64,000 bases of DNA. Source: Leucobacter luti. GTDB taxonomy: Bacteria; Actinomycetota; Actinomycetes; Actinomycetales; Microbacteriaceae. Position numbers and translations under genes: made by a program. Each line of letters opens with the position of its first letter. The stretch's first letter is position 1. The stretch covers positions 2,728,001 to 2,792,000 of the forward strand of contig NZ_CP080492.1 of NCBI RefSeq assembly GCF_019464495.1, given 5' to 3'. The notes under the pieces were generated by a model. The model worked only from the letters and a program-made list of their open reading frames with translations, made no database searches and was not told where the DNA came from. Below are positions 2,197-23,879 of the stretch, piece after piece.

Positions 2197-3845
2197 CTAC
2201 GCTGAGACGGGGAGTGCGCTGAGTGCTTTCGCGAGCGCCGTTCCATCTTCATCGGCGAGTGCTGCCTTGCTCAAGCGAGCGAGCGTCTTCGCGGCCTCCG
2301 GCGCCCCGATGAGCTGCGGAACAGTGGCCATGAGCGCTGCGAAGCTCTCCGAACCGTGCGCGTGTGTTTGGCCGTAGCCCTTGAGGACACGGGCACACTT
2401 GGCGACCTCGCACGCGAGTTCGTAGTCCACTTCAGCCGCGGTGACAGTGAGGTCGAGCCACGCCTCAATCGCGAGCTGCTCTCGCCCATAGCGGAGCGAG
2501 CGCGGTCGTATTGGGCGCATCGATGCCATCAGCCACAGCATGCTCGAGCCGAATACTGAGGTGGTGTTCACGATCATGCCATCTCGGGTGATCGCACCGA
2601 CGACCTTCGCGAACACCCGTGAGCGAGACAGCGCTCTGCCCAGCGCGGTCGGCAGCGTGTCAGTGATCTCGTCGACCTGCGGGTGGAGGAACTCGCGCAC
2701 TTGAGTGAGCTGACCCGTCTCCGCTTTTGCCTCAACGCGCACGCCTTCGATGCGGCTCTTGCGTAACTTCTGGAGTGCCACGTGAATGGTGTCTTGGTAC
2801 GACATCCAGAGCGCCGTGTGCCGAGCGACTTCAATCGAGAGTTCAGCACTGCCACTGCGCCCGGTATCGAACGGAATCACCCGTGAAATCCGGTCGAGGA
2901 ACAGATCCGTGTACGCCGGCCCCTGATACATCGCGGTGCGCACGCAACCGTGTACCACCATCGACCGCGCAGTTTCAGCGAACGCGGGCACCCGGTCCAT
3001 GCGATCGGCGATCTTGGGCCCCACGAGTGCGCGCGGATCGGAGATCGCGAGCTCCGTGTGGCGCTTCTCGGCTGCCTCTGCGGCCTCCTCCTCGGGATCG
3101 CGGGGGCGTCTGCGCCCGATCGTGACGCGCACGGGGCCGAGGCCAGATGGCGGGGCCGGGGAGCGGCAGCGAGCGCAGCTGCCTCGGCCGCTGCCTCCTG
3201 CGCTGCAGTGTAGCCGAGCCCAAACGCCTTGAGTGAGCGTTCTACGGCTTTCCCCGATCGCCTCAGCGACGCTTCAAATGCCTCACGCGGGATCGGCAGC
3301 ACACCGGACCCGGCGAGCGCCCCAAACAGTGAGGATGAGATCACACTCCCCGCCTGCGCTGCGAGCGCATTGAAGTCGGTCGCGATGAGTTGCTTGGACC
3401 CGGCGCGCGCCGAGCGCATCAGGCTCTCCTCGTCAACGCGACCATCATCCATCGCGATCTTCTCCGCGATCGAGTACACCCGGTTCGTTGATGCGATAAG
3501 CGTGGTGCGGTCTGGGGTGCAGAATCCGCGCTGCAGTGCGCGTCCCGCCTCCATCAGTTCTGAGGCGATTACGACGTCGACCTGGCCCGGGGTGGGGAAC
3601 AAGCTCAGAATCGGCTCCATGCGTGCGCTGCCCAGGCTCGCTGTGTCGCTGCGCGGGTAGAGCTCGACGTAGTACACGGTGGCGCCGGTGCGCTGTGCGA
3701 CGCCGGCGACGGAGGTGCTCTGCGTCACGAACCCGGCGTCCTCACCGAGTGAGACGATCCAGTCGGCCAGCACACCACCGCCCTCGCCGCCCATGGCGAG
3801 AACGGCGATGGTGATGGGACGGCGGCCGGTTTCCCAGGTGCTCAT
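2197..3845 (-). pseudogene. iorB: Indolepyruvate ferredoxin oxidoreductase subunit beta, frameshifted
   Basis: The beta subunit of the IorAB 2-oxoacid:ferredoxin oxidoreductase, which decarboxylates aryl-2-oxoacids to aryl-acetyl or aroyl-CoA. The N-terminal part (ATG at 3845, overlapping the iorA stop by 4 bases) has the POR-gamma domain with AMGGEGGGVLADW. It reads in one frame to about GLGYTAAQEAAAEAAALAAA. The C-terminal DUF6537-like part (from about SDPRALVGPKIADRM to PVSA) reads in a second frame. The switch falls at about 3140-3175 in a G/C-rich stretch with GGGG runs and is explained by one missing base; the total span of 1649 bases is one short of 550 codons. This is either a real mutation or a homopolymer sequencing error. 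Without repair the protein loses its C-terminal half. Confidence 0.8.
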
Positions 3846-6016
3846 GCAGCCACCTCGTACTGGCTCGCGCGTCGCTCGACGGGAGAGGACAGCATGGAGA
3901 TCCATGCGGATCGGATCTTGCCGAGGGTGCGGTCGCCCCAGCTCGGGTTGATGACGACGTCGGTGCGATAGAACGAGGGGCAAAGCGATGCCGCGTGGGC
4001 GTTTGCGCCGCACACGCCGCACCCCACGCAGCTGTCGATCACGGTCGCCACCGGGTCGGTGCGCATCGGGTCTGGATTCTCTTTCAGTGTGAGCGACGGA
4101 CAGCCCGAGATCCGGATACAGGCATGATCGCCTGTGCACGTGTCGGCATCAACACCGAAGCGCTGGCGCACCACCCGTTTTCCCGCCGCAATATCTTTGG
4201 CGCGTTTCGGCTTCTCGCGGCGTTGGAGATTGAGCTGACACTCGCTCTGCGCCACAATCACCTTCGGACCTTCGGTCTCCGTGGTGAACGCTTCAACGAA
4301 GATCTTCTTGAGTTTCGCGACGTCATAGGTGTGGGTCATCGTTTTGGCCCATTTCACTCCGATGCCGCGCACGGCGCGCTCGATCGGGTTCCCGGATCGG
4401 CGATTCGGCGTCTCGGCCTGGCCATAGGAGGACAGCACGTCCTGCCCGCCCGTTGCTGCGGCGTACGAATTGTCGACGACCACGACGACCTGGTCGTTCT
4501 TGTTGAACACAGCGTTGCCGATCCCGCTGGTGAGCCCGTTATGCCAGAAGCCGCCGTCGCCCATCACGCCAATGGTGGAGCGATCGGCATCCTTTGGGTT
4601 GAGTGCTGCGGCGCCCGCAGAGCCGAGTCCATACCCCATCGTGGTGCCGCCCAGGTTGAACGGTTCATTGATGCCGAAGAGGTGGCAGCCGATGTCCATG
4701 CTGACGTGGTGCTCCTGTCCCACCTCTTTCTCTGCGAGTTTCATCGCGGAGAAGATGGGGCGCTCCGGACACCCGGTGCAGAGCCCAGGTGGACGCGCCT
4801 GCACCTGCTGCGCATCGACACGGGCCGCGAATGGGCTCGCTGGATTTTCAGCGGGGAGTAGGAGCGAGGGCTGTGTCTCCATGAGCTGCGCGGAGTACTG
4901 CTCAAGGAATGCGGTGAGGCCTTTTGTGACGACCTGGGTGGTGTACTCGCCGCCCATCGGCAAGAGGTCCTTCCCATGCAGCGCCGTCGGAACACCGGCC
5001 TTGCGCAGGATTGAGTGCAGGTTCTGCTCGATGTAGTCAGGCTGGCCTTCTTCGAGGAGCAACACTGCTTTCTTGTCTGCGCAGAATTCGAGCACCTCTT
5101 CGTCGATGACGGGGTAGGTGACGTTCATCACGTACATCGGCACACGAGTGTTGCCGAACGCGTCGGAGCAACCCAGCAGTTCGAGTGCACGGTTGAGGGT
5201 GTTGTAGAGTCCGCCCTGCACGATGATGCCGATGTCATCGACGTCGCCCTCGAAGAACTCGTTGAGCTTGTGCTCCCGGATGTATTCGACGGCCGCCGGC
5301 CAGCGCGCATGGATCTTCTCGTGCTCGTGCAGGAAGCTCGCGGGCGGCAGCACGATGCGGCTGAGGTCCCGTTGTGGGTTTTCGACCGCGTCCGTGATTG
5401 TCATCGGTGGTCGAACGTTGTCCTCCGCGACGAAGGAGCCTTGGAGATGGCACGAGCGCAGCCGGAGGTCGAGCATCACCGGAGTGTTACTCGCCTCAGA
5501 GAGCGCGAATCCGTGCTTTACGGTGTTCACAATTGCGGCAATATTGGGGCGTGGATCGAGCAACCACATTTGCGATTTCATGGCGAAGGCGTGTGAGCGC
5601 TCCTGCATGATGCTGGATCCCTCACCGTAGTCTTCGCCGAGAATCACGAGGGCGCCGCCCTGCACCCCGCCGCTGGAGAGATTTGCGAGCGCGTCAGACG
5701 CGACGTTCAACCCCACCGTGGATTTGAAGGTGACCGCCCCTCTGAGCGGGTAGTGCACTGAGGCGGCGAGCATTGCTGCCGCCGTTGCCTCGGATGCGGA
5801 GTTCTCAAAATAGACGTCGAGCTCTTCCAGGATGTCGTGCGCGTCACCGAGCACGTCCATCAGGTGAGAGATCGGGGCGCCTTGATAGCCGCCAACGTAG
5901 GCGACTCCCGATTCGAGGAGGGCTTTCGTGACTGCGAGGATGCCCTCAACGTGCAGCGGAGTTCCTGCTCCAGATCGTAGGAGTTTGACCTCGTTGACGA
6001 ACGACCGTTCAGCCAT
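3842..6016 (-). CDS. iorA: Indolepyruvate ferredoxin oxidoreductase subunit alpha
   Basis: ThDP- and Fe-S-dependent catalytic subunit, 724 residues, the usual length for the fused alpha form. The order is an N-terminal pyrimidine-binding domain, a middle domain, a ThDP/Mg site (GDGGFWHNGLTSGIGN then VVDNSYAA), the motif LCTGCPERP, and a C-terminal ferredoxin-like segment with clustered cysteines (DTCTGDHAC, SGCP, SCVGCGVCG). The enzyme oxidatively decarboxylates aryl-2-oxoacids such as indolepyruvate with CoA and ferredoxin. The ATG at 6016 has an AAAGGG ribosome site, and the stop overlaps iorB. It follows livM on the same strand after 139 bases, so it may be co-transcribed or have its own promoter. 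Isatinate (2-aminophenylglyoxylate) is a plausible substrate given the neighbours. Confidence 0.92.
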   Translation of the reverse strand: MAERSFVNEVKLLRSGAGTPLHVEGILAVTKALLESGVAYVGGYQGAPISHLMDVLGDAHDILEELDVYFENSASEATAAAMLAASVHYPLRGAVTFKSTVGLNVASDALANLSSGGVQGGALVILGEDYGEGSSIMQERSHAFAMKSQMWLLDPRPNIAAIVNTVKHGFALSEASNTPVMLDLRLRSCHLQGSFVAEDNVRPPMTITDAVENPQRDLSRIVLPPASFLHEHEKIHARWPAAVEYIREHKLNEFFEGDVDDIGIIVQGGLYNTLNRALELLGCSDAFGNTRVPMYVMNVTYPVIDEEVLEFCADKKAVLLLEEGQPDYIEQNLHSILRKAGVPTALHGKDLLPMGGEYTTQVVTKGLTAFLEQYSAQLMETQPSLLLPAENPASPFAARVDAQQVQARPPGLCTGCPERPIFSAMKLAEKEVGQEHHVSMDIGCHLFGINEPFNLGGTTMGYGLGSAGAAALNPKDADRSTIGVMGDGGFWHNGLTSGIGNAVFNKNDQVVVVVDNSYAAATGGQDVLSSYGQAETPNRRSGNPIERAVRGIGVKWAKTMTHTYDVAKLKKIFVEAFTTETEGPKVIVAQSECQLNLQRREKPKRAKDIAAGKRVVRQRFGVDADTCTGDHACIRISGCPSLTLKENPDPMRTDPVATVIDSCVGCGVCGANAHAASLCPSFYRTDVVINPSWGDRTLGKIRSAWISMLSSPVERRASQYEVAA

Positions 6017-6155: not shown

Positions 6156-7244
6156 TTACTCTGCCGCCTGGGCCCCGGGACGAGTGATCTTCGGGCGGAA
6201 CGGCCACATTGCCTCGCGTCCCCCCGTGAGTCCCGCGGGACGGAAGATCAAGATGATGACCATGATCGCACCCAAAGTAATGAGTCTGCTGCCAGAGGGG
6301 AGCGAGATCATGAAGTCACCGAGTTGCACGCCTTTTTCGAGCAGGCTGAGTGCGTGGCTGAGCGCTGAAATCGCGAGCGTGCCCACCACGGCACCCCACA
6401 GTGAGCGCATGCCGCCCACGACGAGCATTGCGATCGTCGTGAAGGTGAAATCGAGCGAAAACTGCGATGCCTGTGCGACCCCGTTGAGCTGCACCCAGAC
6501 GGCGCCGCCGATCGCTGCGAGTGCCCCGGATACGGTGAACGCGATCACGCGATGCAGCGTGACGCGGACACCTGAGGCCGGTGCAGCCTGGATATTGTCG
6601 CGCGAGGCCCGCAGCATTCGCGCGCTGCGGCTCTGGCCATAGAGCCAGGCGAGTGCGATCACCAGGAGCGCGATGAGGAGCACGGTCTGCAGATCGAAGC
6701 TCCGCGGCAGACCGGTCATAGACTGGCCTGCCTTGGGGCCCACCTGTTTCCAGTACGTGAGAATTTGCACCACGAGCATCAGGAGGGCGAACGTCGCGAT
6801 CCCGGCCTCCAAACCGTTCAGCCGCATCAACGCAAGGCCGCTGAGGAGCGCTACGAGGCCGCCAGCCACTGCGGCGATAGCGAGAGCCACGAGCGGAGTC
6901 GCCTGTGCGTCGCTGAGGAACGGGAACAGATCGGGCATGATCGAGCTCTTAATGGTGGCCGGGATCGTGAGGAGCGACAGCGTCCACGCTCCCACCGCGA
7001 CGAACGCGATGTGTCCGAACGAGAGGACCCCGCTGTTCCCGATGAAGGTCCACATGGCGACCACGATGATGAGGTTTGCGAGCGCGTACCCGAGGTCGAT
7101 GGCCGCGGTTTGCGAGATCGAGCTCGCAAGGAATGAGAACAGCCAGACCACCACGAGCGGTACCACGAGAGTCCAGAGCTTCGCGAGTGGTTCCGGGATC
7201 GCGATCCCCGGGAAGCGCCGTGGCACGGAGTTCGGCGAGGTCAT
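6156..7244 (-). CDS. livM: Branched-chain/aromatic acid ABC transporter permease LivM
   Basis: Inner-membrane permease of the LivM family, 362 residues with 9-10 hydrophobic segments. The family signature lies near SGVLSFGHIAFVAVGAW, with the cytoplasmic coupling loop near SRSARMLRASRDNIQAAPASG. It pairs with LivH to form the channel. I start it at the ATG at 7244, which overlaps the livH stop (ATGA); longer frames upstream are antisense artefacts. The C-terminus is cytoplasmic and basic. It is the last liv gene in the order livK-G-F-H-M, immediately before iorAB, so the cargo is probably an aromatic or 2-oxo acid rather than leucine. Confidence 0.92.
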   Translation of the reverse strand: MTSPNSVPRRFPGIAIPEPLAKLWTLVVPLVVVWLFSFLASSISQTAAIDLGYALANLIIVVAMWTFIGNSGVLSFGHIAFVAVGAWTLSLLTIPATIKSSIMPDLFPFLSDAQATPLVALAIAAVAGGLVALLSGLALMRLNGLEAGIATFALLMLVVQILTYWKQVGPKAGQSMTGLPRSFDLQTVLLIALLVIALAWLYGQSRSARMLRASRDNIQAAPASGVRVTLHRVIAFTVSGALAAIGGAVWVQLNGVAQASQFSLDFTFTTIAMLVVGGMRSLWGAVVGTLAISALSHALSLLEKGVQLGDFMISLPSGSRLITLGAIMVIILIFRPAGLTGGREAMWPFRPKITRPGAQAAE

Positions 7245-8122
7245 GTGCGCTCCTTCGAGAGCCGTGAGGCGAAGATGCCATTGGGGGCGATTACGAGGAC
7301 GACCGCGACAAGGAGGTAGACGAACGCGATGCGGAAGTCGTTGATCCAGTCGGGCAAGAACGTGGTGAACAAGGAGAGTGCGAACCCCACGAGGAAGCCG
7401 CCGGCAACGCTGCCGCCGAGCCTGCCGAGGCCGCCGATCGTCGAGCCGATCAGTGCGAACAGTGTGACCTGCACGCCAAACGTTGGCCCCACTGAACCGC
7501 TCTGAGCTGTGAGTACGAACGCGATCGCTGCGGCGAGTACCCCGCTGATCGCGAAGGTAAGGGCGATGACGCTGCCTGCCCGGATGCCGAGCACGCGCGC
7601 GGCCCGGAAGTCTTCTGAGGCTGCCTGCACCTGGAGTCCCATGCTGGTGCGGGTCAGGAAGAGTCGCACCGCGAGGAGCAAGATCAGGCCGAGCGCAATG
7701 GAGACCACCGAGATCAGGTTGACGCGGAGTTCTCCGATCCGGATCGACGCGGTGAGACCCGGGGCGACCGCGGCCGAGAGGACGTTGGTCCCGAAGATCC
7801 CGTCGTACACTCGCTGCAGCAGGATGCTGACACCGAAGCTCGCGATGAGCAGCGTTGCCGGTGGCTGCGACCGGATCCAGCGGAACACCGCCGCGTCCAT
7901 GAAGAGCGCGAGCGCAACTGCGACTCCGATCGCCGCGATGATCGCGAGCGGCCACGAGATCGGCCAGAGGATGATGAGGGCGTAGCCCGCGGCCGTGATG
8001 AGCTCGCCATTTGCGAAGTTGGCGAGACGCATGACGCCGAAGACGAGGCCGATGCCGAGCGCAGCGAGGGCGTAGACGGCGCCGGTAGAGGTCGCGTCGA
8101 TGAGTGCCTGAAGGATATTCAC
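7241..8122 (-). CDS. livH: Branched-chain/aromatic acid ABC transporter permease LivH
   Basis: Permease of the LivH family, 293 residues. The N-terminal LIDATSTGAVYALAALGIGLVFGVM and the segment NFANGELITAAGY are typical of the family, followed by several membrane helices and the coupling-loop region SMGLQVQAASEDFRAARVLG. The GTG at 8122 overlaps the livF stop (GTGA), and the stop overlaps the livM ATG, so translation is probably coupled through livF-H-M. It works with LivM, the two ATPases and the lipoprotein LivK. Confidence 0.92.
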   Translation of the reverse strand: MNILQALIDATSTGAVYALAALGIGLVFGVMRLANFANGELITAAGYALIILWPISWPLAIIAAIGVAVALALFMDAAVFRWIRSQPPATLLIASFGVSILLQRVYDGIFGTNVLSAAVAPGLTASIRIGELRVNLISVVSIALGLILLLAVRLFLTRTSMGLQVQAASEDFRAARVLGIRAGSVIALTFAISGVLAAAIAFVLTAQSGSVGPTFGVQVTLFALIGSTIGGLGRLGGSVAGGFLVGFALSLFTTFLPDWINDFRIAFVYLLVAVVLVIAPNGIFASRLSKERT

Positions 8123-8889
8123 GAGCCGAGATACGCTTTCATGAGGAGGGTGGAGTCCTGTGCGTCGTCCGGGCCGAGGGTCATCGTGATGCGACCCTCG
8201 CTGAGCACGTGCGTGCGATCCGCCGCGGCGACGGTCTGCTGTGCACGCTGTTCCACGAGCAGAACGGCCGTGCCACGCGCGCGAATGCGTTCGATCGAGG
8301 CGAACACGGTATCGACCGCGGTGGGTGAGAGCCCGAGTGACGGTTCGTCGAGGGCGAGGAGCTTGGGTGCTGCAAGCAGCGCGCGACCGATCGCGAGTTG
8401 CTGTTGCTGGCCTCCCGAGAGCAGACCGGCCTGGCGGTCGCCAAACTCTTCCAGGATGGGAAACAGCGACAGCACCCATTTCAGGTCATCTGCGAGGCCC
8501 GTGGAGCTGGGACGGGCGGTCGAGCCGAGGCGCAGATTCTCCCGCACGGTCAGCCGTCCAAAGACGTTGTGCCCCTCTGGGACGAGCGCAATGCCCCGTC
8601 TGGCGATTCGCTCGGTCGGCTGCCCGACGAGACGTTGGCCGTCAAACTCGAGGGTGGTCGCACTCGCGCGTACTGCGCCAACGAGAGCGTGCATCGTGGA
8701 TGATTTACCGGCGCCGTTGGGCCCAATGATGCCGACGAGCTCACCTGCGTCGACGTGGAAGGTGATCCCGTTCACCGCAGCGATCCCGCGGTACGACACT
8801 GCGAGGTGTTCGACGGTGAGGAGGCGCTGGGCCGAGGGTGCCGGCGGGACCGTGGGAGTTGAGGGGGCCGACGCTGCCTGCGCGGTCAT
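8119..8889 (-). CDS. livF: ABC transporter ATP-binding protein LivF
   Basis: ATPase of the LivF type, 256 residues. Walker A is GPNGAGKSS at about residue 57, the Q-loop region carries VPEGHNVFGRLTVRENL (characteristic of LivF), the signature is LSGGQQQQLAIGRAL, and Walker B is LLALDEPSLGL. An unusual Ala/Pro-rich leader of about 22 residues precedes the domain (TAQAASAPSTPTVPPAPSA). The ATG at 8889 overlaps the livG stop and the stop overlaps livH. It energises uptake with LivG. Confidence 0.92.
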   Translation of the reverse strand: MTAQAASAPSTPTVPPAPSAQRLLTVEHLAVSYRGIAAVNGITFHVDAGELVGIIGPNGAGKSSTMHALVGAVRASATTLEFDGQRLVGQPTERIARRGIALVPEGHNVFGRLTVRENLRLGSTARPSSTGLADDLKWVLSLFPILEEFGDRQAGLLSGGQQQQLAIGRALLAAPKLLALDEPSLGLSPTAVDTVFASIERIRARGTAVLLVEQRAQQTVAAADRTHVLSEGRITMTLGPDDAQDSTLLMKAYLGS

Positions 8890-9662
8890 GCGAGAGGTCC
8901 TTCCGAGATCTGTTGGGCGGCGCTGCCCAGGTAGCTACTCGCCAGACGCTCGTCATGGCGGACTTGGTCCGGGCTCCCGTCGAGCACATTTTTGCCTGCA
9001 CCGAGTACGTAGATGTAGTCGCAGCTCGAGAAGATCAGCGGCATGTTGTGATCGATCAGGAGCACGCCGACGTTGCGGGCAGCAACGTCGCGCATGCTCT
9101 CACGCAACTGCGCTGCCTCGCCGTCGTTGAGACCCGCCGCCGGCTCATCGAGCAGCACGTAACTGGGCCGGGTGGCGAGCGCACGGGCGACGCCGAGACG
9201 GCGCTCGACCCCGTGCGGGAGTCGATCGGCGTCATGGAGCATCCAATCCCCGAGCTGCAGCTCCTCAATCAGGCCCTGCGCAATGGCTCGGGCCTGCTTG
9301 GGGGCTGCACCGCAGGCGATTGCGGTGACCTCAACGTTTTCGAGCACTGTGCACCGGCTAAAGAGGTGGCCGTGCTGGAAGGTGCGGGCGACGCCGCGGC
9401 GTGCGCGTCGTTCCGGGCGCACGCCGGTGAGATCACTGTCGTCCGCGATCACACGACCGCTGTCGGGCGAGTCATAGCCGGTGAGGATATTCACGAGCGT
9501 TGACTTGCCTGCGCCATTTGCGCCGATGAGACCGGTGACCCGGCCGCGCGGGATCTCGATTGAGACATCCTGCAGGGCTTGAACGCCGCTGTACGCGCGG
9601 GAGAGGGAATCCCCCTGCAGGCTGCCAGCGCCTGCAGGGGGAGTGTCGGAGTGCTGCATCAT
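8886..9662 (-). CDS. livG: ABC transporter ATP-binding protein LivG
   Basis: ATPase of the LivG type, 258 residues. Walker A is GANGAGKST and Walker B is YVLLDEPAAGLND. The C-terminal extension DYIYVLGAGKNVLDGSPDQV is typical of LivG. The signature is degenerate (LPHGVERRLGVARAL), as is usual for LivG proteins, which often have PYG/PHG in place of SGG. The gene starts 15 bases after livK with two adjacent ATGs, and codons 8-18 form a strong RNA hairpin (see 9611-9641). Confidence 0.92.
   Translation of the reverse strand: MMQHSDTPPAGAGSLQGDSLSRAYSGVQALQDVSIEIPRGRVTGLIGANGAGKSTLVNILTGYDSPDSGRVIADDSDLTGVRPERRARRGVARTFQHGHLFSRCTVLENVEVTAIACGAAPKQARAIAQGLIEELQLGDWMLHDADRLPHGVERRLGVARALATRPSYVLLDEPAAGLNDGEAAQLRESMRDVAARNVGVLLIDHNMPLIFSSCDYIYVLGAGKNVLDGSPDQVRHDERLASSYLGSAAQQISEGPLA
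9611..9641 (-). promoter_or_regulatory. Hairpin at the livK-livG junction
   Basis: A perfect 12-bp stem (CCCCCTGCAGGC at 9611-9622, GCCTGCAGGGGG at 9630-9641) with a 7-base loop, inside the first codons of livG about 20 bases after its start. A structure here can protect the livK end of the message or slow livG translation. There is no U-tract, so it is not an ordinary terminator. Confidence 0.5.
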
Positions 9663-9677
9663 GGGGTGCAGATCCGC

Positions 9678-11046: not shown

Positions 11047-11076
11047 TTTCTATCCCAGAAACGTAACGTTCGTCAA
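11047..11076 (-). promoter_or_regulatory. Promoter of the liv-ior operon with overlapping operator-like motif
   Basis: On the minus strand a TTGACG -35 (plus 11071-11076) is followed after 18 bases by TAGAAA (plus 11047-11052). The -35 is embedded in TTGACGAACGTTAC. The same ACGTTCG-type core recurs at the divergent ridA/FAH promoter (13698-13738), so both may be bound by one regulator, with the adjacent PaaX the obvious candidate. Confidence 0.5.
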
Positions 11077-15550: not shown

Positions 15551-15687
15551 GCCGAGGTCTCGCTTGCACGGTTCCCCCGCAGCTCGCAGCACCCCTGAGC
15601 GTTCTGAAACCTCTATCCACCCCGATCCATACTTGGCTGTCACGCCGTGGGAGCCCAGCACACCGTACACGCAGAAAGGATCCGCAC

Positions 15688-18072
15688 ATGGGCAAACGAA
15701 TTGCCATTATCGGAGGAGGCCCAGCGGGGCTGTACTTCGCAGTGCTGGCGAAGAAGCTCGATCCGAGCCACGACATCACCATCTGGGAGCGCAACGCCCG
15801 TGACGACACGTTCGGCTTTGGCGTCGTCTTTAGCGACGAGACGCTCAGCGGCATCGAAAATGCCGACCCCGAAGTGTACGCAGCGATGCAGTCCTGTTTC
15901 GCTCAATGGAACGAAATCGACGTCCACTTCAAAGGTGAGCGGATCACGATTGGCGGCCAGGGCTTTGCCGCCACGAGCCGCAAGGAGCTCTTGCTCCTGC
16001 TGCAGGAGCGCGCCCTCGCGCTCGGCGTCACGATTCATTTCCGAACCGAAGCTCCCGATGTCGATGAGCTCTCCCGCGACTACGACCTCGTGGTCGCGTG
16101 CGATGGCATCAATTCTCGCGTGCGGCCGCACTATGCCGATTCGTTCAAGCCGACGCTTGATCCGCGCCAATCGAAGTTCATCTGGCTCGGACTCGATCGC
16201 GCGATCGAAGCCTTTACCTTCCATGTGAAGCACACTCCGTGGGGAATCATGCAGGTCCACGCGTACCCCTACTCAGCTACCGAGAGCACATTCCTCGTTG
16301 AAATGCACGAAGATGTGTGGCGCAGCGCCGGGTTCGACGCAAGCGAGAGCACGAGCTTCCCACCGGGCGTCAGCGACGACGAATCGGTCGCGAAGCTCGG
16401 GGCCATCTTCGCGGAGGAACTGGACGGAGCGACGCTGCTCACGAACAATTCGAAGTGGATCACCTTCAATACCGTGCGCAACGAACAGTGGCGCCACGAA
16501 AACGTCGTGCTCCTGGGCGACGCTGCGCACACGGCTCACTTCTCGATTGGATCCGGGACCAAGCTGGCGCTGGAGGATGCGCTCGCGCTGGCAGCAAATG
16601 TGCATGAGTTCCCAGAGGACCTGCCCGCCGCGCTCGAAGCATATGAAGAGGAACGCCGCCCGGTGGTGCTCTCCCTGCAGCGGGCAGCGCAGGCCTCGCT
16701 TGAGTGGTTTGAGAATATTGGGCAGTACGCGGATCAGGATCCACTGCAATTCGCGTTCAACCTACTCACCCGTTCGCGGCGCATCACCTTCGAAAACCTC
16801 GGCCTCCGAGATGCGGAGTTCGCGGACATCATGCAGCGCGACTTTGCACAGCGGGTATCAGGAGCGGATATCCCAGCGATGTTCCAGCCTGCACAGATTG
16901 GCAAGCTGGAGCTCAAAAACCGGATCATTGTCTCAGCGATGAACCAGTACTCGGCCGAGGACGGCTTGGTGGGGGATTTCCACCTCGTGCACATTGGCAG
17001 CCGGGCGACGGGCGGGGCTGGGCTCATCATGTCCGAGATGATCGCGCCCTCCGCCGATGGCCGGATCTCCCCGGGATGTCCTGGGCTGTACACGGACGAG
17101 CAGCGCAATGCTTGGGCGCGCATTGTCGACTACGTCCACGCCAACTCCACCGCGAAGATCGGCGCCCAAATCGGCCACTCAGGGCGAAAAGGGTCAACGA
17201 AGAAGATGTGGGAGGGAATTGACGATCCCGTGGAAGCTGGTGGCTGGGAAGTCATTGCACCATCCGCAATCCCCTATGGGCCGGGATGCAATGTCCCGCG
17301 CGAGGCCACTTCTGCTGATCTGGATCGCGTCCGAAGCGAATACACGGCGGCCGCACGACGCGCGGATGAGGCCGGATTCGACCTCATCGAGCTCCATGCC
17401 GCACACGGCTACCTGCTCTCTTCGTTCCTTTCGCCGATTGCGAACCAGCGCACGGACTCCTACGGCGGTTCGCTGGAGAATCGGCTGCGCTACCCACTCG
17501 AGGTCTTTGACGCGGTGCGGGCAGTGTGGCCGGAGGAGAAGCCGTTGCTCGTGCGTATCTCGGCGCACGACTGGGTGCCGGGCGGCAACACAGACGAAGA
17601 AGCCGTGGCGATCGCCGCGGCGTTCATCGAACACGGCGCAGACGGAATCGATGTGTCTTCCGGTCAGGTCTCCAAAACCGAGAAGCCGCAGTTTGGTCGG
17701 AGCTACCAGACACCGTTCGCGGATAAGATTCGGAACCGTGTCGCCGAGAAGGCTGGTGTTCCTGTGATCGCGGTCGGCGCGATCTCCTCGTATGACGACG
17801 TGAACTCGCTGCTGCTCGCGGGGCGCTGCGATTTCGTCGCGATCGGCCGCAGCCATCTCTACGATCCCCACTGGACCCTGCACGCCGCGGCTGATCAGGA
17901 GTATCGCGGCGAGGCCGCCGACTGGATTGATCCGTATCGCGCTGGCCGTCGCAAGCCGCCCGTCGCACGAACGGACGCGGTCCGGCCGCGCCTCGAGCTC
18001 CTCACCGGAGCCACACCAGCCGATGGGGTGCACACCCGCTGGATTGGAGGGCAGACCATCCCAGTCTCGTAA
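15688..18072 (+). CDS. Two-domain anthraniloyl-CoA / salicylyl-CoA monooxygenase-reductase
   Basis: A 794-residue fusion. Residues 1 to about 390 are an FAD-binding aromatic hydroxylase (IAIIGGGPAGLYFAVLAKK; GDAAHTAHFSIGSGTKLALEDA). Residues about 395-770 are an Old Yellow Enzyme-type FMN domain (MFQPAQIGKLELKNRI, ELHAAHGYLLSSFLSP, DSYGGSLENR). This architecture is known from 2-aminobenzoyl-CoA monooxygenase/reductase of aerobic anthranilate catabolism and is often annotated salicylyl-CoA 5-hydroxylase/oxidoreductase. It hydroxylates the CoA-activated ring at C5 and can then reduce it. I start at the ATG at 15688 behind AGAAAGGA. No aryl-CoA ligase is in the window, so the CoA thioester must come from elsewhere, possibly IorAB. 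Confidence 0.9.
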   Translation: MGKRIAIIGGGPAGLYFAVLAKKLDPSHDITIWERNARDDTFGFGVVFSDETLSGIENADPEVYAAMQSCFAQWNEIDVHFKGERITIGGQGFAATSRKELLLLLQERALALGVTIHFRTEAPDVDELSRDYDLVVACDGINSRVRPHYADSFKPTLDPRQSKFIWLGLDRAIEAFTFHVKHTPWGIMQVHAYPYSATESTFLVEMHEDVWRSAGFDASESTSFPPGVSDDESVAKLGAIFAEELDGATLLTNNSKWITFNTVRNEQWRHENVVLLGDAAHTAHFSIGSGTKLALEDALALAANVHEFPEDLPAALEAYEEERRPVVLSLQRAAQASLEWFENIGQYADQDPLQFAFNLLTRSRRITFENLGLRDAEFADIMQRDFAQRVSGADIPAMFQPAQIGKLELKNRIIVSAMNQYSAEDGLVGDFHLVHIGSRATGGAGLIMSEMIAPSADGRISPGCPGLYTDEQRNAWARIVDYVHANSTAKIGAQIGHSGRKGSTKKMWEGIDDPVEAGGWEVIAPSAIPYGPGCNVPREATSADLDRVRSEYTAAARRADEAGFDLIELHAAHGYLLSSFLSPIANQRTDSYGGSLENRLRYPLEVFDAVRAVWPEEKPLLVRISAHDWVPGGNTDEEAVAIAAAFIEHGADGIDVSSGQVSKTEKPQFGRSYQTPFADKIRNRVAEKAGVPVIAVGAISSYDDVNSLLLAGRCDFVAIGRSHLYDPHWTLHAAADQEYRGEAADWIDPYRAGRRKPPVARTDAVRPRLELLTGATPADGVHTRWIGGQTIPVS

Positions 18073-18185: not shown

Positions 18186-18956
18186 ATGACCACCACCGAA
18201 ATCGCTGCCGCGCTCGCGAGCGGCAGCCTCCGCATTCTGGATCTCACGAACACGCTGTCATCGGATACACCGACGCTGCGTTTGCCAGCACCGTTCGCGA
18301 ATCTCATTGACTTCAGCATGGAAGAAGTGAGCCGGTACAACGAACCAGGCCCCTTCTGGATGCATCAGAATATCCACACCGGTGAACACATCGGCACCCA
18401 CATCGACGCCCCAGTGCACTGGATCAGCGGTCGTGATGGCGTCGACGTTGCGAGCATTGTGCCGGAACGACTGATCGGCCCAGCGGTGGTGCTCGACTTC
18501 ACGGCGCAGGTCGCCGCGAATCCCGATTATCTGGTCACCATTGAAGATATCCAGGCGTGGGAGGCGGAGCACGGTGTGCTGCCCGACAACGCATGGGTGT
18601 TGTTCCGCACGGGGTGGGATCGATTCTCAGACGATCAGGAGGCGTTCCTCAACGCCGATGACACTGGTTCTCACACGCCCGGCATGACCGCCGAGGCCGC
18701 GAAGTGGCTCGCTGAGGAGACCAATATCTCTGGCGTCGGTGTCGAGACCGTGGGCATCGACGCCGGCCGCGGTGCCGAGCTTGATCCTCCGTTCCCCGCG
18801 CATTACCACCTGCTCGGAAACGACAAGTACGGGATCACCTCGTTGCAGAATCTGGCGCAGCTGCCCCCGACCGGCGCGGTCATCGTCGTCGCTCCGCTTC
18901 CCATCATCGGAGCAGGCGGAAGCCCGTCGCGCGTCTTCGCGCTGATCGACGGATAG
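18186..18956 (+). CDS. Cyclase family protein, isatin hydrolase / kynurenine formamidase-like
   Basis: A 256-residue metal-dependent hydrolase of the cyclase family. The full signature HxGTHxDxPxH is visible as HIGTHIDAPVH, with a further GVGVETVGIDAG segment typical of the fold. Characterised relatives are isatin hydrolase (isatin to isatinate) and bacterial kynurenine formamidase (N-formylkynurenine to kynurenine); both open an indole-derived amide. Next to an indole monooxygenase-like operon and the anthraniloyl-CoA enzyme, isatin hydrolase is the better guess. It has an AAAGAGGAGAA ribosome site and is 9 bases from the downstream RidA gene. Confidence 0.88.
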   Translation: MTTTEIAAALASGSLRILDLTNTLSSDTPTLRLPAPFANLIDFSMEEVSRYNEPGPFWMHQNIHTGEHIGTHIDAPVHWISGRDGVDVASIVPERLIGPAVVLDFTAQVAANPDYLVTIEDIQAWEAEHGVLPDNAWVLFRTGWDRFSDDQEAFLNADDTGSHTPGMTAEAAKWLAEETNISGVGVETVGIDAGRGAELDPPFPAHYHLLGNDKYGITSLQNLAQLPPTGAVIVVAPLPIIGAGGSPSRVFALIDG

Positions 18957-18965
18957 GGGCACACC

Positions 18966-19361
18966 ATGTCACGCACAGTGCTCACCCCAGACGGTATCCA
19001 TCCAGCTCCCGGGTTCAGCCACGTCACGATCGCACCACCGGGAACCACGGTCTACATCGCTGGACAGATGGCGATCGCGCCAGACTTCAGCGTGGTGGGC
19101 GGGGATGACCTCGGACAGCAGACCGCCGCAGCTATGCGCAACGTGAAGCTCGCGATGGACGCGGCGGGACTGACGTGGGACGACGTCGTTCGCCGCACGA
19201 TCTACACGACCGCGCCGACGGAGTTCGGGGTAATCACCGCCGCGATCGAAGAAGTACAGGGGAGCGATCGACACCCCTCGCAGACGATTGTCGGGATCTC
19301 GGGCCTCGCCATTGCGGGCGCGCTGATCGAGATCGAAGTCACCGGCGTGGTCCCCGCATAG
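18966..19361 (+). CDS. RidA family protein (second copy)
   Basis: A 131-residue Rid-fold protein: TTVYIAGQMAIAPDF, AAAMRNVKLAMDAAGLTWDDVVRRTIY and the C-terminal GALIEIEVTGVVP. Like the copy at 13226 it appears to lack the substrate-binding Arg of RidA imine deaminases (GISGLAIAGALIEI), so a hydrolase or isomerase role on an enamine or amide intermediate is possible. It is co-transcribed with the cyclase and followed by an intrinsic terminator. Confidence 0.87.
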   Translation: MSRTVLTPDGIHPAPGFSHVTIAPPGTTVYIAGQMAIAPDFSVVGGDDLGQQTAAAMRNVKLAMDAAGLTWDDVVRRTIYTTAPTEFGVITAAIEEVQGSDRHPSQTIVGISGLAIAGALIEIEVTGVVPA

Positions 19362-19630: not shown

Positions 19631-21217
19631 CTACCGCGTGCGACGCGTGATGATGCGCTGAGCGACAATGTGGCCCGATCCAGCGCCAAGGCCGGGGCCG
19701 GGGTGCGTCGCCGCGCCGATATGCCATACGCCAGCAATGGGTGTGCGATGCTCGGCCGAACCGGGGAAGGGCCGCCAGCGCAGGTTCTGATCCAATTCCG
19801 CCGACCCACCGTAGGGATCTCCGGCAATCGCGTTTGGGTTTGCCGCAAGCAAGTCGGTCGGCGCGATGACGTCGGTGCCCAGGATCGTCGACTTCGTGCC
19901 AGGCGCAAACTCCTCAAGCCGATCGAGCACACGATCAACGTAGCGTTGCCGCAGCTCAGCGTCGTCCCACCCGCCACTCGTGTCGATCTGTTCGCGCGCA
20001 TCCCCGATCGGCGCAAACGGCACTTCCTGCAGTTGCAACCACAGTGTGGCCTTCCCCTCGGGAGCCCGGCTCGAATCGACCACGCTCTGCTGTCCGACCA
20101 CGACGGTCGGGGACGAGGGCAGCAACCCGGCTTCGGCCTGCGCACACGCAATCCCGGTGCTGCCAGAGCCATCGCTGAGGTGCACGAGCGGCACTTCCCG
20201 CAGCGCTTCGTCTTCCCACTGCAGCGGCTTGTCAAGCGCGAAGTGCAGTTGCATCGCCGCCCGTCCTGGCCGGTAGCTTGTTGCGGACTTCCGCTGCGTC
20301 GCCACCTCCGGCGCCCGAGCCAGCAGGGTCCCATAGAGCGCGCCAGGTGAGACGCTGGCGAGCACTGTGTCCGCCGTGATAAGCCCTGCCGAGGTCTGCA
20401 CCCCGGTGACCTTGCCACCGGCAGTCACGATCTCCTCCGCCTCGACTCCGGTGCGAATCTCGACCCCGGAATCGCGCAGCAGACTCTCGAACGCTGTGAG
20501 GAATCCCTGGACACCTCCCGTGACGATCGGGAGGCCGAACTGGTGCATCGCCGCAGCAAACACGGGGATCATCATGCCCCCGGTCGCGTGATCCGGCCCT
20601 AGCCCCGAGTGCAGACCCCACGGCGTCCACAACGCGTCCACTTCCCAACCGGTGAACTTGCGGCGGAGATAGCTCCGTGCGCTCGTCAGAGCATCGCGAG
20701 CCAGCTCCTCAACGCCCGCAACTTTCAGCCCGCGCACGGCTTTCCACCCGAGCTTGCCCAGCACCGGGGCGGAGCCGAGCTCGGCGCCGAGCGCCCCGAA
20801 AATCGTGGGTGCGCGCGTGCCGAATTCTTCGAGCATGCCCAGATACGCATCGCGATCAGCCGCTGATGCAAAGCCTTCGGCGGTGCGCGCAGGATCCCGG
20901 TACGCGATCGAGGTGCGGCGTTCGCCCTGTACGTCCGCGGTGCTTGCAGTGACCGCGGTTTCGCTGTTGCTGTAAGCGAGACCCCGCGCTGCGAGTTCCC
21001 CGCCCAGCTCGCCGAAGGCTGCGCTCGACACGAACAAGGGGTGCCAGGAGGAATAGGTGTCGTGCAAGAACCCGGGGACTGTGCGTTCCGGATCGGCGGC
21101 GATGAAACCACCGATCCGATCCGCTCGTTCCAGAAGTACTGTGGGGACCCCAGCTCGCGCGAGCTCTGCGGCCGCGACCATCCCGTTGATACCGCTGCCA
21201 ATGACGACTGTGGTCAT
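19631..21217 (-). CDS. CrtI-like FAD-dependent oxidoreductase
   Basis: A 528-residue NAD(P)/FAD-binding oxidoreductase of the phytoene desaturase/amine oxidase group. The N-terminal dinucleotide fold is VVIGSGINGMVAAAELARAGVPTVLLE with GGF, and the C-terminal FAD motif is GVWHIGAATHPGPGLGAGSGHI. The substrate is not readable. It is the last gene of the operon SDR / monooxygenase / flavin reductase / this gene, and its ATG overlaps the reductase stop. In place of the cofactor-free oxygenase known from Acinetobacter indole operons, it could oxidise a hydroxyindolinone such as dioxindole to isatin. That is inference. Confidence 0.85.
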   Translation of the reverse strand: MTTVVIGSGINGMVAAAELARAGVPTVLLERADRIGGFIAADPERTVPGFLHDTYSSWHPLFVSSAAFGELGGELAARGLAYSNSETAVTASTADVQGERRTSIAYRDPARTAEGFASAADRDAYLGMLEEFGTRAPTIFGALGAELGSAPVLGKLGWKAVRGLKVAGVEELARDALTSARSYLRRKFTGWEVDALWTPWGLHSGLGPDHATGGMMIPVFAAAMHQFGLPIVTGGVQGFLTAFESLLRDSGVEIRTGVEAEEIVTAGGKVTGVQTSAGLITADTVLASVSPGALYGTLLARAPEVATQRKSATSYRPGRAAMQLHFALDKPLQWEDEALREVPLVHLSDGSGSTGIACAQAEAGLLPSSPTVVVGQQSVVDSSRAPEGKATLWLQLQEVPFAPIGDAREQIDTSGGWDDAELRQRYVDRVLDRLEEFAPGTKSTILGTDVIAPTDLLAANPNAIAGDPYGGSAELDQNLRWRPFPGSAEHRTPIAGVWHIGAATHPGPGLGAGSGHIVAQRIITRRTR

Positions 21218-21744
21218 GAACCCTCCGTGCTCCGTTGCGTGGTGGTGCCATGATAGCTGCCAGCGTGGAACACCAGCGGATCCGCTGCGGCGTGCGCGTA
21301 TCGCTGAATCTGACCAATGTAGATGACGTGGTCGCCCGCTTCGTGTCGCGCCACTGTCTCGCACTCAAATGTCGCGAGTGTGCCTTCGAGCACCGGGATT
21401 CCCGCGATTCCTTCGCGCAACGGAACGCCGTCGAACTTGTCGGTGGATCCGGTCGCAAACTGCTTCGATAGATGCTGCTGGTCACTCGCAAGCACATTGA
21501 TCGCAAAGTGGCTTGCGGTCTCGAACGCTGGCAGGCTGCGCAGATGCCGGCCGGGGCACCACAGCACGAGCGGCGGGTCCATCGAAAGCGAGGTGAACGA
21601 GTTTGCGGTCACCCCGATCCGCTCGCCGTCTGGCGCAATCGTGGTCACCACGGTGACCCCGGTGGCGAACTGGCTGAACGCGTTCCGCAAATCACGCGGG
21701 TCGAATGAGTCTGAATCAATCATGGTGCTCATAGTCATAGGCAT
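21214..21744 (-). CDS. Flavin reductase (StyB-like partner)
   Basis: A 176-residue flavin reductase-like domain (FMN-binding split barrel): FATGVTVVTTIAPDGERIGVTANSFTSLSMDPPLVLW and later HFAINVLASDQQHLSKQF. It reduces FAD or FMN with NAD(P)H and hands the flavin to a two-component monooxygenase. It is 23 bases downstream of the StyA-like gene and overlaps the next gene, so it is the obvious partner of that oxygenase. Several Met codons (1, 3, 5, 8) are possible starts. Confidence 0.9.
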   Translation of the reverse strand: MPMTMSTMIDSDSFDPRDLRNAFSQFATGVTVVTTIAPDGERIGVTANSFTSLSMDPPLVLWCPGRHLRSLPAFETASHFAINVLASDQQHLSKQFATGSTDKFDGVPLREGIAGIPVLEGTLATFECETVARHEAGDHVIYIGQIQRYAHAAADPLVFHAGSYHGTTTQRSTEGS

Positions 21745-21767: not shown

Positions 21768-23009
21768 CTACGCGTTCGCTCGCGCGGCCACTTCGGCGAG
21801 GTAGCGCTCGCTACCTTCGGGGGTGAGGAAGTAATCGCCAAAATCGACGGGGTCGGTGAAGCCGTTCGCGAAGCGGTGCGCGACCTCTGGGTACTGCGCT
21901 CCGGCGGCAAGAAGCTGGAGCACGTGGGGCGGCGGAGGGCTCAGCAGAGCGTTCGTCCAGTCGGCCACAGGCTTGATCCGCGCCCAGAACCGCTCAAAAG
22001 TATTCTGCTGGAACGCGCGATCGTAGGGCAGATTCTCATGATCCAGGATCGCATCGAGATAGCTTTGCGCGCACTTTGATGCGTTGTTCGAACCCTGCCC
22101 GGTGATGGGATCGTTCAAGACGACCACGTCCGCCATACCGAGCACGGTGCGACCGGAGGGGAGCTGTAAGACCGGGTGGCGCACCGTTGGCGCGAAGCGG
22201 CCTTGCAGCACACCGAGGTCATCGGTGAGGGCGATATCGCTTGCGCGCTCAGCCTCCCAGGGGAGGTATGTGCGCAGAAAGTCCATTGATGCGTCGAGGT
22301 GCTGCTCGGGAGTGAGGCCCTGCCACCGATCCAGCGGGCCGCCCGGGACACCCTCAAACACGAAGATATGGCAGTCGCCAGTGATCGTGGCCGCAGGAAA
22401 AACGAAGAACTCGCCGACCCCAGGGATGAGATTGAAGCTCACCCGCGAGAAGTCAGGGGTGGGCTCAAAGCCCGTGACGTAGGTGAGGGCGAGCGCACGC
22501 TGTGGCTCAGCGTACGTGCTGCGCTCCGTGTCACGCTCAAAGGCCCGGGCGATCTCGCCCTTCCCCGCAGCGACGATCACGAGCTCAGAATCGAGAGCAT
22601 AGCGTTCGAGGGCAGCGATATCGGCCTCCTCGTATACGATCTCCCCGCCGTTCTGCGTGAACAGCTCCATGAGCGCGGGGAATTTGATCCGCTGATCGAT
22701 CGCGTAGGCGGGGGAGTCGAGCTGCCCCGCCCAGCTGAAAAGCTTCTCGCCCGGCTGCTCTGGGTGTGGAACCGTGAAGCCGATGCCCTCGACCGGGGGC
22801 GCATCCGGCCACAGGTCGACGCCGACGGCGCGCTCATACTCCAGTGCCTTCGAAAACATGCACTGGCTTGAAGCGACGCGACCAGCCCGGATCTCCTCGG
22901 GGGTACGGTCGGAGATGAGGCGCACGTGGAAGCCGTGCATGAGGAGGCCGAGGCCGAGCTGAATGCCGGACTGGCCGGCACCGACGATGGTGATGTGACG
23001 CTGAGACAT
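21768..23009 (-). CDS. StyA-like group E flavoprotein monooxygenase, probable indole monooxygenase
   Basis: A 413-residue FAD monooxygenase of the styrene/indole monooxygenase family: ITIVGAGQSGIQLGLGLLMHG at the N-terminus, DPITGQGSNNASKCAQSY near the FAD site. Aligned by eye to Pseudomonas StyA, the positions that separate styrene from indole enzymes read Ser47-Gln49-Met51, Val73, Ile76 and Ala101. This matches the indole-type set S-Q-M-V/I-I-A as I recall it, not the styrene-type N-V-H-Y-H-S. The expected reaction is epoxidation of indole to indole 2,3-oxide with reduced FAD from the StyB-like partner. It is flanked by an SDR and the reductase, as in iif-type indole operons. Confidence 0.88.
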   Translation of the reverse strand: MSQRHITIVGAGQSGIQLGLGLLMHGFHVRLISDRTPEEIRAGRVASSQCMFSKALEYERAVGVDLWPDAPPVEGIGFTVPHPEQPGEKLFSWAGQLDSPAYAIDQRIKFPALMELFTQNGGEIVYEEADIAALERYALDSELVIVAAGKGEIARAFERDTERSTYAEPQRALALTYVTGFEPTPDFSRVSFNLIPGVGEFFVFPAATITGDCHIFVFEGVPGGPLDRWQGLTPEQHLDASMDFLRTYLPWEAERASDIALTDDLGVLQGRFAPTVRHPVLQLPSGRTVLGMADVVVLNDPITGQGSNNASKCAQSYLDAILDHENLPYDRAFQQNTFERFWARIKPVADWTNALLSPPPPHVLQLLAAGAQYPEVAHRFANGFTDPVDFGDYFLTPEGSERYLAEVAARANA

Positions 23010-23102: not shown

Positions 23103-23879
23103 CTACGGTGCGAGCAGCGGGATCGCCGGATCGCGCTGCTCAGGCCCCAGCGCCCCATATCCCCCGTCAACGGCATAGTCGGCGCCGGTGACGAAGCTCG
23201 AGGCGTCTGAGGCGAGGAACGACACGACGCGCCCGATTTCCTCGGGGCGGCCGAGACGACCGAGCATGTGAAAGTGCGCTGCGACGCGATCCGCGTGTTC
23301 CAGATTGCCTCCGGACACCTCTTCAATGACGTTTGACCACGTCCAGCCGGGGCTGACCGAGTTCACCCGAATACCGTCGGGAGCGTAGTCGAGCGCTTGG
23401 AGCTTGGTGAGGTGCACCACCGCGGCTTTGCTGACCGGGTAGACCCAGCGACCGGTTTGCGCGACAGCGGAGGAAATCGATGAGAAGTTGATGATCGCTC
23501 CGGTGCCACGTTGCGCCAAATGCGGTCTGGCGAGCTCCGACAGTCTGGCTCCGCTGACGAGATTGATGTTGAGCCCGGTGAGCCAATCGTCGCGCGAGGT
23601 CTCCGCTCCGTTGTCGAGATAGCTCGCGGCGAGGTTGACAAGCACATCGAGCCGTCCGTGGCGCTCGATGATCCCGGAGATGAGCGCCGCAAGCTGCCTG
23701 TCATCGGAGATGTCGCAGTGCTGCGCATCGATCTCCTCAGGGAGCTGAGCGAGGCCGGCCGCATCTATGTCGGCGACGATCACTGCGGCACCGTCCTGGT
23801 GGAGCACCTCGACGACGCCGCGGCCAATCTTCGTGGCGCCTCCGGTGACGAGGGCCACCTTGTCGGTGAGTGTGGGCAT
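23103..23879 (-). CDS. Short-chain dehydrogenase/reductase, IifB-like by context
   Basis: A 258-residue classical SDR. The cofactor motif is TGGATKIGRG, the active-site Ser lies in NFSSISSAVAQTGRW, and the catalytic pair is YPVSK. The usual NNAG is changed to NLAAS. The C-terminal TGADYAVDGGYG is typical. I start at the ATG at 23879 with a GGAGGA ribosome site; the open frame continues upstream without one. It is first in the operon with the indole monooxygenase-like protein. In Acinetobacter the comparable SDR oxidises the indole dihydrodiol to 3-hydroxyindolin-2-one, and the same role is suggested here. Confidence 0.9.
   Translation of the reverse strand: MPTLTDKVALVTGGATKIGRGVVEVLHQDGAAVIVADIDAAGLAQLPEEIDAQHCDISDDRQLAALISGIIERHGRLDVLVNLAASYLDNGAETSRDDWLTGLNINLVSGARLSELARPHLAQRGTGAIINFSSISSAVAQTGRWVYPVSKAAVVHLTKLQALDYAPDGIRVNSVSPGWTWSNVIEEVSGGNLEHADRVAAHFHMLGRLGRPEEIGRVVSFLASDASSFVTGADYAVDGGYGALGPEQRDPAIPLLAP

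Follow-up and report, generated by a model that had tools for sequence, protein, structure and literature searches.

A predicted aerobic indole degradation island in Leucobacter luti, with IorAB as a proposed substitute for an anthranilate-CoA ligase

Gene content and proposed route of the island

The analysed stretch of 64,000 nucleotides (the window) lies within one 3.41-Mb contig of Leucobacter luti and carries a gene island, extending from iorB (2,197) to a short-chain dehydrogenase (SDR) gene (23,879), which is predicted to encode an aerobic route of indole degradation via isatin, with the oxidoreductase IorAB taking the place of an ATP-dependent anthranilate-CoA ligase. We place the probability of this reading at roughly three in four. 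Leucobacter is the closest source of the window proteins and, among the matches listed, IorA is 93 % and 92 % identical to those of L. chromiireducens and L. luti, respectively. The island comprises a minus-strand block (iorB, iorA and livM-H-F-G-K, then paaX, a hotdog gene and ridA1), a plus-strand block (VOC, fah, tesB, a two-domain monooxygenase, an isatin hydrolase and ridA2) and a second minus-strand block (a CrtI-like gene, a flavin reductase, IndA and the SDR), with AraC and IclR regulators encoded beyond it. Every gene named in the original prediction, which was made from the sequence alone, was found where it had been placed between 2,197 and 23,879. The livKHMGF, paaX, VOC, hotdog, ridA1, FAH, tesB and ridA2 genes are additional to those.

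In the proposed route IndA and its flavin reductase would oxygenate indole, the IifB-like SDR would give rise to dioxindole (3-hydroxyindolin-2-one), and the CrtI-like FAD enzyme would convert this to isatin. Isatin hydrolase would open the ring to yield isatinate (2-aminophenylglyoxylate), which IorAB would decarboxylate oxidatively with CoA to form 2-aminobenzoyl-CoA, with release of CO2 and reduction of ferredoxin. This CoA thioester would next be dearomatised by the two-domain flavoenzyme, a RidA protein would take off the nitrogen of the enamine, and enzymes of the thioesterase and FAH families would open the ring and release the product; the enamine as monooxygenase product and the chemistry of isatinate are those expected from general biochemical knowledge. 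All of these reactions, above all the isatinate, FAD-enzyme and post-monooxygenase steps, are predicted for this organism from sequence. The phenylglyoxylate oxidoreductases of anaerobes catalyse a similar conversion of an aryl-2-oxoacid to an aryl-CoA, but do so in an anaerobic context, whereas the island would function aerobically and on an ortho-amino substrate.

The lower half includes the two-domain flavoprotein (15,688–18,072, plus strand), which passes the cut-off of the NF006101 model, named salicylyl-CoA 5-hydroxylase/oxidoreductase (1181.4 bits; cut-off 1078), and combines a FAD monooxygenase domain (FAD_binding_3) with an Old Yellow Enzyme domain (Oxidored_FMN). On this domain make-up it is assigned to the 2-aminobenzoyl-CoA monooxygenase/reductase type. 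Upstream on the same strand are encoded a FAH-family protein (13,797–14,660; PF01557, E 2.6e-65), the candidate hydrolase for ring C-C cleavage, and a TesB-like acyl-CoA thioesterase (14,657–15,550; TIGR00189, 197.5 bits, under the cut-off of 292.85). The proposed deaminase of the dearomatised enamine is RidA-like protein 1 (13,226–13,630, minus strand; TIGR00004, E 4e-14, under the cut-off), homologues of which are also encoded near the monooxygenase in most of the ligase-type modules described below.

Distribution of the island and the ligase slot among relatives

The gene families, their order, their co-occurrence and an empty ligase slot could all be observed directly. Among 149 related genomes, with IorA counted at E ≤ 1e-100, IorA is encoded in seven: that of the window (G000), G001, G015, G019, G032, G036 and G050. 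IndA is present at >80 % identity in exactly the same seven, other IndA-type matches reaching 32–35 %, as are isatin hydrolase (>80 %; sixteen others at 50–74 %) and the two-domain monooxygenase (80–100 %). Four of the families whose co-occurrence the original prediction had put forward for checking are thus found together. Gene order is kept in G001 (without a ridA2 match), G015, G019 and G032; IorAB lies ~18 kb beyond livM in G036, and the cluster of G050 is split over contigs, the examined parts of which match. Four other genomes of the genus repeat this order, a fifth does so with IorAB relocated, and a sixth has its cluster split over contigs, so that the arrangement is not a matter of chance. 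Across a wider sample of 394 genomes of the class, IorA is found in ten and isatin hydrolase in fifty-eight, the latter being present in all ten IorA genomes compared with 48/384 without IorA (Fisher p 2.4e-9, a value which overstates independence, as the IorA genomes other than that of the window derive from only three families, with six, two and one genomes, so that events are few). IorA and the hydrolase are encoded on one contig, 0.2–14 kb apart, in nine of these ten genomes.

The two-domain monooxygenase also occurs, at 61–78 % identity, in twelve of the 149 relatives without IorA (G022 and G085, with only a partial match of 46 %, were left out). In eight of these (G070, G059, G034, G071, G052, G106, G024 and G129) a ligase gene is located between tesB and the monooxygenase gene, and in a further three (G111, G093 and G025) within 6 kb, with the G093 match containing one internal stop. 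The monooxygenase contig of the twelfth, G105, ends, and a 54 % ligase homologue is encoded on another contig. By contrast, tesB adjoins the monooxygenase gene in all seven IorAB genomes and the slot, represented in the window by the gap at 15,551–15,687 (plus strand), is without a ligase. A ligase is therefore found nearby in 0/7 IorAB genomes compared with 11/11 of the others when G105 is dropped (Fisher p 3e-5, kinship ignored). The slot ligase of G034 has as its best solved relative the anthranilate-CoA ligase 4wv3 (E 2.9e-81), and falls under the cut-off of the benzoate-CoA ligase family model (321.9; cut-off 375.25). An AMP-binding gene adjacent to the cluster in G036 was considered as a ligase and rejected, being 24 % identical to the anthranilate-type ligase.

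The absence of an aryl-CoA ligase from the island, as originally read, was confirmed, and the distribution of ligases among the relatives supports the interpretation that IorAB stands in for one. As much of the rest of the module, namely paaX, ridA1, fah and tesB, is common to both types, the cluster resembles a module of the ligase type from which the ligase has disappeared and to which the indole and IorAB parts have been added, with this direction of change suggested by the comparison.

Equivalent loci in other taxa

A scan for IorA across named genomes, comprising the best 80 of 592 confirmed loci with flanks of up to 10 kb, placed an isatin hydrolase homologue in the flank of 51 loci (46 of the 59 whose flanks reach 9 kb or more on each side). 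No more than about 250 bases separate the hydrolase gene from iorA in Pimelobacter, Nocardioides, Nocardia, Terrabacter, two Acidobacteriota metagenome-assembled genomes (MAGs), a Sphingopyxis MAG and others. The monooxygenase (at least 40 % identity) is found in 19/80 loci, and a CrtI homologue (at least 34 % identity) together with isatin hydrolase in 8/80. Rieske genes of the type found in the iad loci for indole-3-acetate degradation occur in 34/80, with the monooxygenase in the flank of four of these. Eighteen loci lack hydrolase, monooxygenase and Rieske markers, of which twelve have a cut flank (one of them on the same contig as the cluster of G015) and six have 10 kb on both sides.

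Equivalent clusters are also found outside the Actinomycetota. That of Providencia alcalifaciens encodes SDR, IndA, flavin reductase, hydrolase, CrtI, a porin-like protein, AraC, IorA, IorB, thioesterase, monooxygenase, cupin and FAH, and the ligase query matches nothing in the 22 kb examined. A plasmid of Alloyangia pacifica carries the same core, with RidA, and no ligase is annotated or matched in 33 kb. In Azospirillum thermophilum the parts are divided, with SDR-IndA-reductase-transporter-CrtI-hydrolase on one plasmid and iad-type IorAB and the monooxygenase on another. Nineteen records with IndA relatives were found in a plasmid collection, and among the eleven examined, five are iif-type loci with the cofactor-free oxygenase IifA, two encode CrtI and hydrolase without IifA, and the other four lack all three and also an SDR immediately next to IndA. 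Cupin genes are located near FAH in the clusters of Alloyangia, Providencia and Tsukamurella (L147, L144 and L148).

Weighing of the proposed route

Several observations weigh against the proposed route, and these are considered here together with the alternatives. It is unlikely, firstly, that the island serves another indole compound, such as skatole, indole-3-acetate or imported isatin or isatinate, with the same lower half. A Liv-type transporter adjoins iorAB, both IorAB and the hydrolase are also found in iad loci, and some IorA loci (in Tsukamurella, Pimelobacter and a Pseudonocardia MAG) encode a class-B-like flavin monooxygenase with SDR, CrtI and hydrolase in place of IndA. The island IndA (21,768–23,009, minus strand), however, has as its best solved relatives 7z4x (E 1.6e-152), which we take to be an indole monooxygenase although its record reads putative flavoprotein subunit, and 9lrq. 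It reaches 233.6 bits with the StyA model, for which the cut-off is 550. The excerpted literature gives S46-Q48-M50-V/I73-I76-A96 as the fingerprint of group E indole monooxygenases (PMC13101512). The S-x-Q-x-M part of this was seen directly in IndA, and the V73 and I76 positions fit the alignment with 7z4x, so that IndA may be classed on sequence with group E; the StyA-like protein with an indole-enzyme fingerprint is thus as first described. Furthermore, the SDR (23,103–23,879, minus strand; PRK08265, 360 bits, cut-off 294) adjoins IndA as in iif loci and is 55–57 % identical to the IndA-adjacent SDRs of five of these, and no Rieske oxygenase was found among the island genes scanned, the search for one being confined to these. 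The class-B-like enzymes (L068, L075 and L148), for which a weak trimethylamine-monooxygenase match was obtained and whose examined flanks contain no IndA, may represent an alternative entry enzyme in CrtI/isatin hydrolase/IorAB clusters.

The flavin reductase (21,214–21,744, minus strand) was assigned as monooxygenase partner by profile match, and the CrtI/CrtO-like FAD enzyme (19,631–21,217, minus strand), recognised by profile and domain matches, is a putative dioxindole-to-isatin dehydrogenase or oxidase. This last step is reached by elimination. A search at 1e-10 gave no IifA match, either in the initial 40 kb of the window or in the corresponding regions of the relatives. The eight IndA+SDR loci examined outside Leucobacter, that of Providencia included, divide into five with IifA but no isatin hydrolase and three with CrtI and isatin hydrolase but no IifA, none having both IifA and hydrolase in the flank examined. 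This pattern fits the earlier suggestion that the FAD enzyme stands where Acinetobacter uses a cofactor-free oxygenase.

It is unlikely, secondly, that isatinate is converted to free anthranilate, by another enzyme or spontaneously, and activated by a ligase elsewhere, with IorAB being incidental or in a side branch. A co-regulated ligase elsewhere had been named at the outset as a finding that would refute the route. In the whole genome of the window no anthranilate-CoA-ligase-like match was obtained at E ≤ 1e-40, with only distant similarity of 25–28 %, and the best models for its seven AMP-binding matches are of acetate/propionate, fatty-acid, MbcS-like, MenE and PaaK types, the last of which lends the alternative some support. 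The other six IorAB genomes keep an unlinked ligase homologue, so that anthranilate may also enter there. These include homologues in G001 (67 %), G015 (62 %, ~95 kb away) and G050 (56 %, with an internal stop), two copies in G036 (one with an internal stop), and pieces in G019 and G032. An MFS transporter gene is located beside the ligase in G001 and G015, the two scanned, and a PaaX homologue is encoded near it in G001 and ~5 kb from it in G032. Arguing for IorAB, wherever the usual slot could be tested, a missing ligase coincides with the presence of IorAB, and none of the 149 relatives was found to encode IorA apart from the other island genes.

Experimental data from Variovorax also bear on this point. 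Returning iadC-K2 to a strain with the iad locus deleted restored anthranilate (PMC12633357, in excerpt), from which it follows that anthranilate can form without IorAB. In the same source, C8H7NO3 and C7H7NO build up strongly only in strains overexpressing the whole iadC-K2 region, and iadA and iadB go unnamed in the text available. By our own arithmetic these formulae are those of isatinate and 2-aminobenzaldehyde, respectively. Such a build-up would be expected if IadAB normally consumes isatinate and if the deletion removes iadAB, although anthranilate still forms.

It is improbable, thirdly, that the cyclase (18,186–18,956, plus strand) is not an isatin hydrolase but serves a step that follows the monooxygenase, such as the conversion of an intermediate of ring cleavage. 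Its gene follows the monooxygenase gene in the same orientation, and its second-shell motifs are unlike those of characterised isatin hydrolases, for which a WxW/FxW pocket and a GLQC/GLAS motif are given as signatures (PMC6117287, in excerpt); the cyclase has WMH and GITS at these places. A G[ILV]T[SL] motif is present in 115 of the 120 closest homologues listed, the remaining five having no pattern match, and among 54 homologues from loci fetched by IorA or IndA search, GLQC occupies the aligned columns in 39 and GLAS in five. The cyclase nevertheless matches the sequences of four isatin hydrolases of solved structure, with E values from 7e-79 to 8e-64 (5nmp, E 7.2e-79), and retains the metal ligands and the His/Asp proton network (GEHIGTHIDAPVHW, IDA and AH at aligned places), while the hydrolase homologues in the equivalent clusters of Providencia and Azospirillum carry GLQC. 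Moreover, 36 of the 51 IorA loci with a hydrolase homologue are without a detected monooxygenase gene in flanks of up to 10 kb. A partner enzyme dependent on thiamine diphosphate (ThDP), of either kind, is what would be predicted beside the hydrolase if its product is a 2-oxoacid, and of the sixteen homologues outside the cluster (50–74 % identity), fifteen have a ThDP decarboxylase-like gene directly downstream, the locus of the sixteenth ending too soon to show one. The cyclase is thus best described as isatin-hydrolase-like, short of a proven member. The hydrolase and decarboxylase-like genes outside the cluster (L017–L031, in other Leucobacter and related genomes) may form a separate isatin-handling pair; no aldehyde dehydrogenase to complete a decarboxylase route was found among the seven G129 open reading frames scanned near such a pair.

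Finally, that IorAB acts on indolepyruvate or another amino-acid-derived arylpyruvate, within a loose set of aromatic catabolism genes, is suggested by its family name and its ThDP and POR domains but is highly improbable, since IorA (3,842–6,016, minus strand; PF02775) reaches 284 bits against the curated indolepyruvate oxidoreductase model TIGR03336 (cut-off 650.9) and the N-terminal part of IorB 29.1 against TIGR03334 (cut-off 205.8), IorA-type relatives in Alloyangia, Providencia and Variovorax likewise fall far under the cut-off, no aminotransferase was found among the island genes scanned, and the ten class genomes with IorA each encode isatin hydrolase.

The state of the IorB gene (2,197–3,845, minus strand) also counts against the route, as it is in two frames in this assembly, comprising an N-terminal part with the POR domain (2,877–3,845), the sole POR-domain match in the genome, and a C-terminal part with DUF6537 (2,197–3,117). 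The two pieces reach 347.7 and 298 bits against PRK08312 (cut-off 348), compared with 655 in Alloyangia and 715 in Providencia. The frame change falls in the linker that joins POR to DUF6537, where conservation is poor, and so probably reflects either a mistake in the assembly or an alteration of very recent origin. In six relatives iorB is a single frame of 547–555 amino acids, and two 549-residue proteins in the database show 100 % identity across the 66 % of the query that was matched. No ferredoxin gene was found among the island genes. In the wider scan, 29/80 IorA loci lack a hydrolase in the flank (13/59 with full flanks), and three of the nineteen with the monooxygenase also hold a ligase at 40 % identity or more, as does Tsukamurella. 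The AraC-family gene (24,044–25,039, plus strand), assigned by profile match, is likewise out of frame in this assembly: it encodes an AndR-like sensor part without the DNA-binding part. The alignment with relatives covers roughly the first 70 % of the gene (as two separate pieces in the case of G032), which makes a shift of frame ahead of the DNA-binding part likely.

A palindromic operator-like site appears to be common to the liv-iorAB and fah-tesB-monooxygenase promoters. The pattern TRACGWWCGTSA occurs without mismatch at two places in the 64 kb, upstream of livK-iorAB (TAACGTTCGTCA, 11,064–11,075, plus strand) and between ridA1 and fah, upstream of the fah-tesB-monooxygenase-isatin hydrolase-ridA2 run (TGACGTTCGTGA, 13,699–13,710, plus strand). 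Before fah its core is exact in each of the six cluster genomes inspected. Among the nine modules of the ligase type that were examined, it is exact in G034 and G024, variant in G025, G129, G070 and G052, and weak in G059, G071 and G106. Before livK it is exact in three of six genomes, differs by a single base at a similar position in two, and is unclear in G032; it was not found in the 267 bp examined for G050. The core is absent from the SDR-araC region in five of six genomes and present in G015, and a shorter form, ACGTTCGTSA, also occurs at 53,875. No exact word of nine or more bases is shared by the liv and fah promoters, and the pattern came from inspection by eye and was then checked; having been defined after looking, it serves as a lead only.

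Transporter, regulators and remaining genes

The livM, livH, livF, livG and livK genes (6,156–10,886, minus strand) encode a branched-chain-type ABC transporter, with weak model matches for livK and the other names taken from the translations, and are kept in the relatives. The transporter is encoded in the same direction as iorAB and is proposed to be an aromatic acid importer. Regulatory proteins include a PaaX-family regulator (11,213–12,034, minus strand; TIGR02277, 145.9 bits, under the cut-off of 264.55) and an IclR-family regulator (25,084–25,857, plus strand; profile match), the latter being kept at the same end of the cluster in relatives. A hotdog-fold thioesterase (12,811–13,209, minus strand; TIGR00369, 86.3 bits, cut-off 36.6), a VOC/glyoxalase-family protein (12,157–12,642, plus strand; profile and domain matches) and RidA-like protein 2 (18,966–19,361, plus strand; TIGR00004, E 4.6e-12, under the cut-off) are also encoded in the island. 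The VOC and ridA2 genes are the least constant, with no VOC match in G036 and no ridA2 match in G001, and in G036 and G050 ridA2 lies ~2.4 kb from iorB and not beside the hydrolase. At the left edge of the island (5–1,871 of the window) is a luciferase-like monooxygenase gene, followed by an AraC gene with an AndR-like DNA-binding part.

Relation to known pathways and significance

Azoarcus evansii is a host of a 2-aminobenzoyl-CoA pathway with both the ligase and the monooxygenase/reductase. The aerobic 2-aminobenzoyl-CoA pathway (Qu et al. 2017, as described in PMC6221969) shares the two-domain monooxygenase with the island, but forms its substrate from anthranilate by an ATP-dependent ligase, whereas the island is proposed to form it from isatinate by IorAB. 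The iif cluster of Acinetobacter and Burkholderia (PMC12538310; PMC6221969) similarly encodes an indole monooxygenase, flavin reductase and SDR, but its cofactor-free IifA makes anthranilate, where the island has the CrtI-like FAD enzyme, isatin hydrolase and IorAB. The iad loci of Variovorax, Achromobacter and Bradyrhizobium have IorAB, as IadA/IadB, in common with the island, together with a homologue of isatin hydrolase in the position of IadI, but start from indole-3-acetate with the Rieske oxygenase IadCDE and side-chain removal (PMC9613470; PMC12633357). The island thus joins an iif-type entry, the isatin middle part common to iad loci and a 2-aminobenzoyl-CoA lower part. Further background is provided by PMC9871250 and PMC8383072.

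The original prediction had regarded an aerobic combination of this kind as new, which holds in part. Isatin and isatinic acid have been detected in Variovorax paradoxus CL14 (PMC9613470; PMC12633357), and IadA/IadB are described as markers of aerobic auxin-degrading iad loci, with no step assigned to them in the text available (PMC9613470), so that the occurrence of IorAB in an aerobic isatin-forming pathway was already known. The action of IorAB on isatinate was not found in the literature searched, most subscription journals lying outside the search, nor was any report joining isatinate with 2-aminobenzoyl-CoA, or isatin hydrolase with indolepyruvate ferredoxin oxidoreductase. The anaerobic isatinate conversion mentioned with the original prediction could not be confirmed in the same literature.

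Beyond Leucobacter, it appears reasonably likely that the subfamily annotated as indolepyruvate oxidoreductase (IadAB/IorAB, with a PRK08312-type beta subunit) consists of isatinate:ferredoxin oxidoreductases (CoA-acylating) which make 2-aminobenzoyl-CoA, forming a hub shared by aerobic indole and indole-3-acetate breakdown in the Actinomycetota, Pseudomonadota and Acidobacteriota, and is misnamed in databases. If so, a step would be provided for IadA/IadB of the iad loci, and a widely used annotation could be corrected; the IorA search yields at least 8000 candidates. A 2018 review lists the role of isatin in indole breakdown and the genes of the anthranilate part as open questions (PMC6221969), and the island provides a gene set for both, along with a testable enzyme. 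It would be unusual for an aerobe to couple an O2-using upper pathway to acyl-CoA synthesis that depends on low-potential ferredoxin, and IorAB would save the ATP-dependent activation. The conversion of isatinate to a CoA thioester may be a step common to many soil bacteria.

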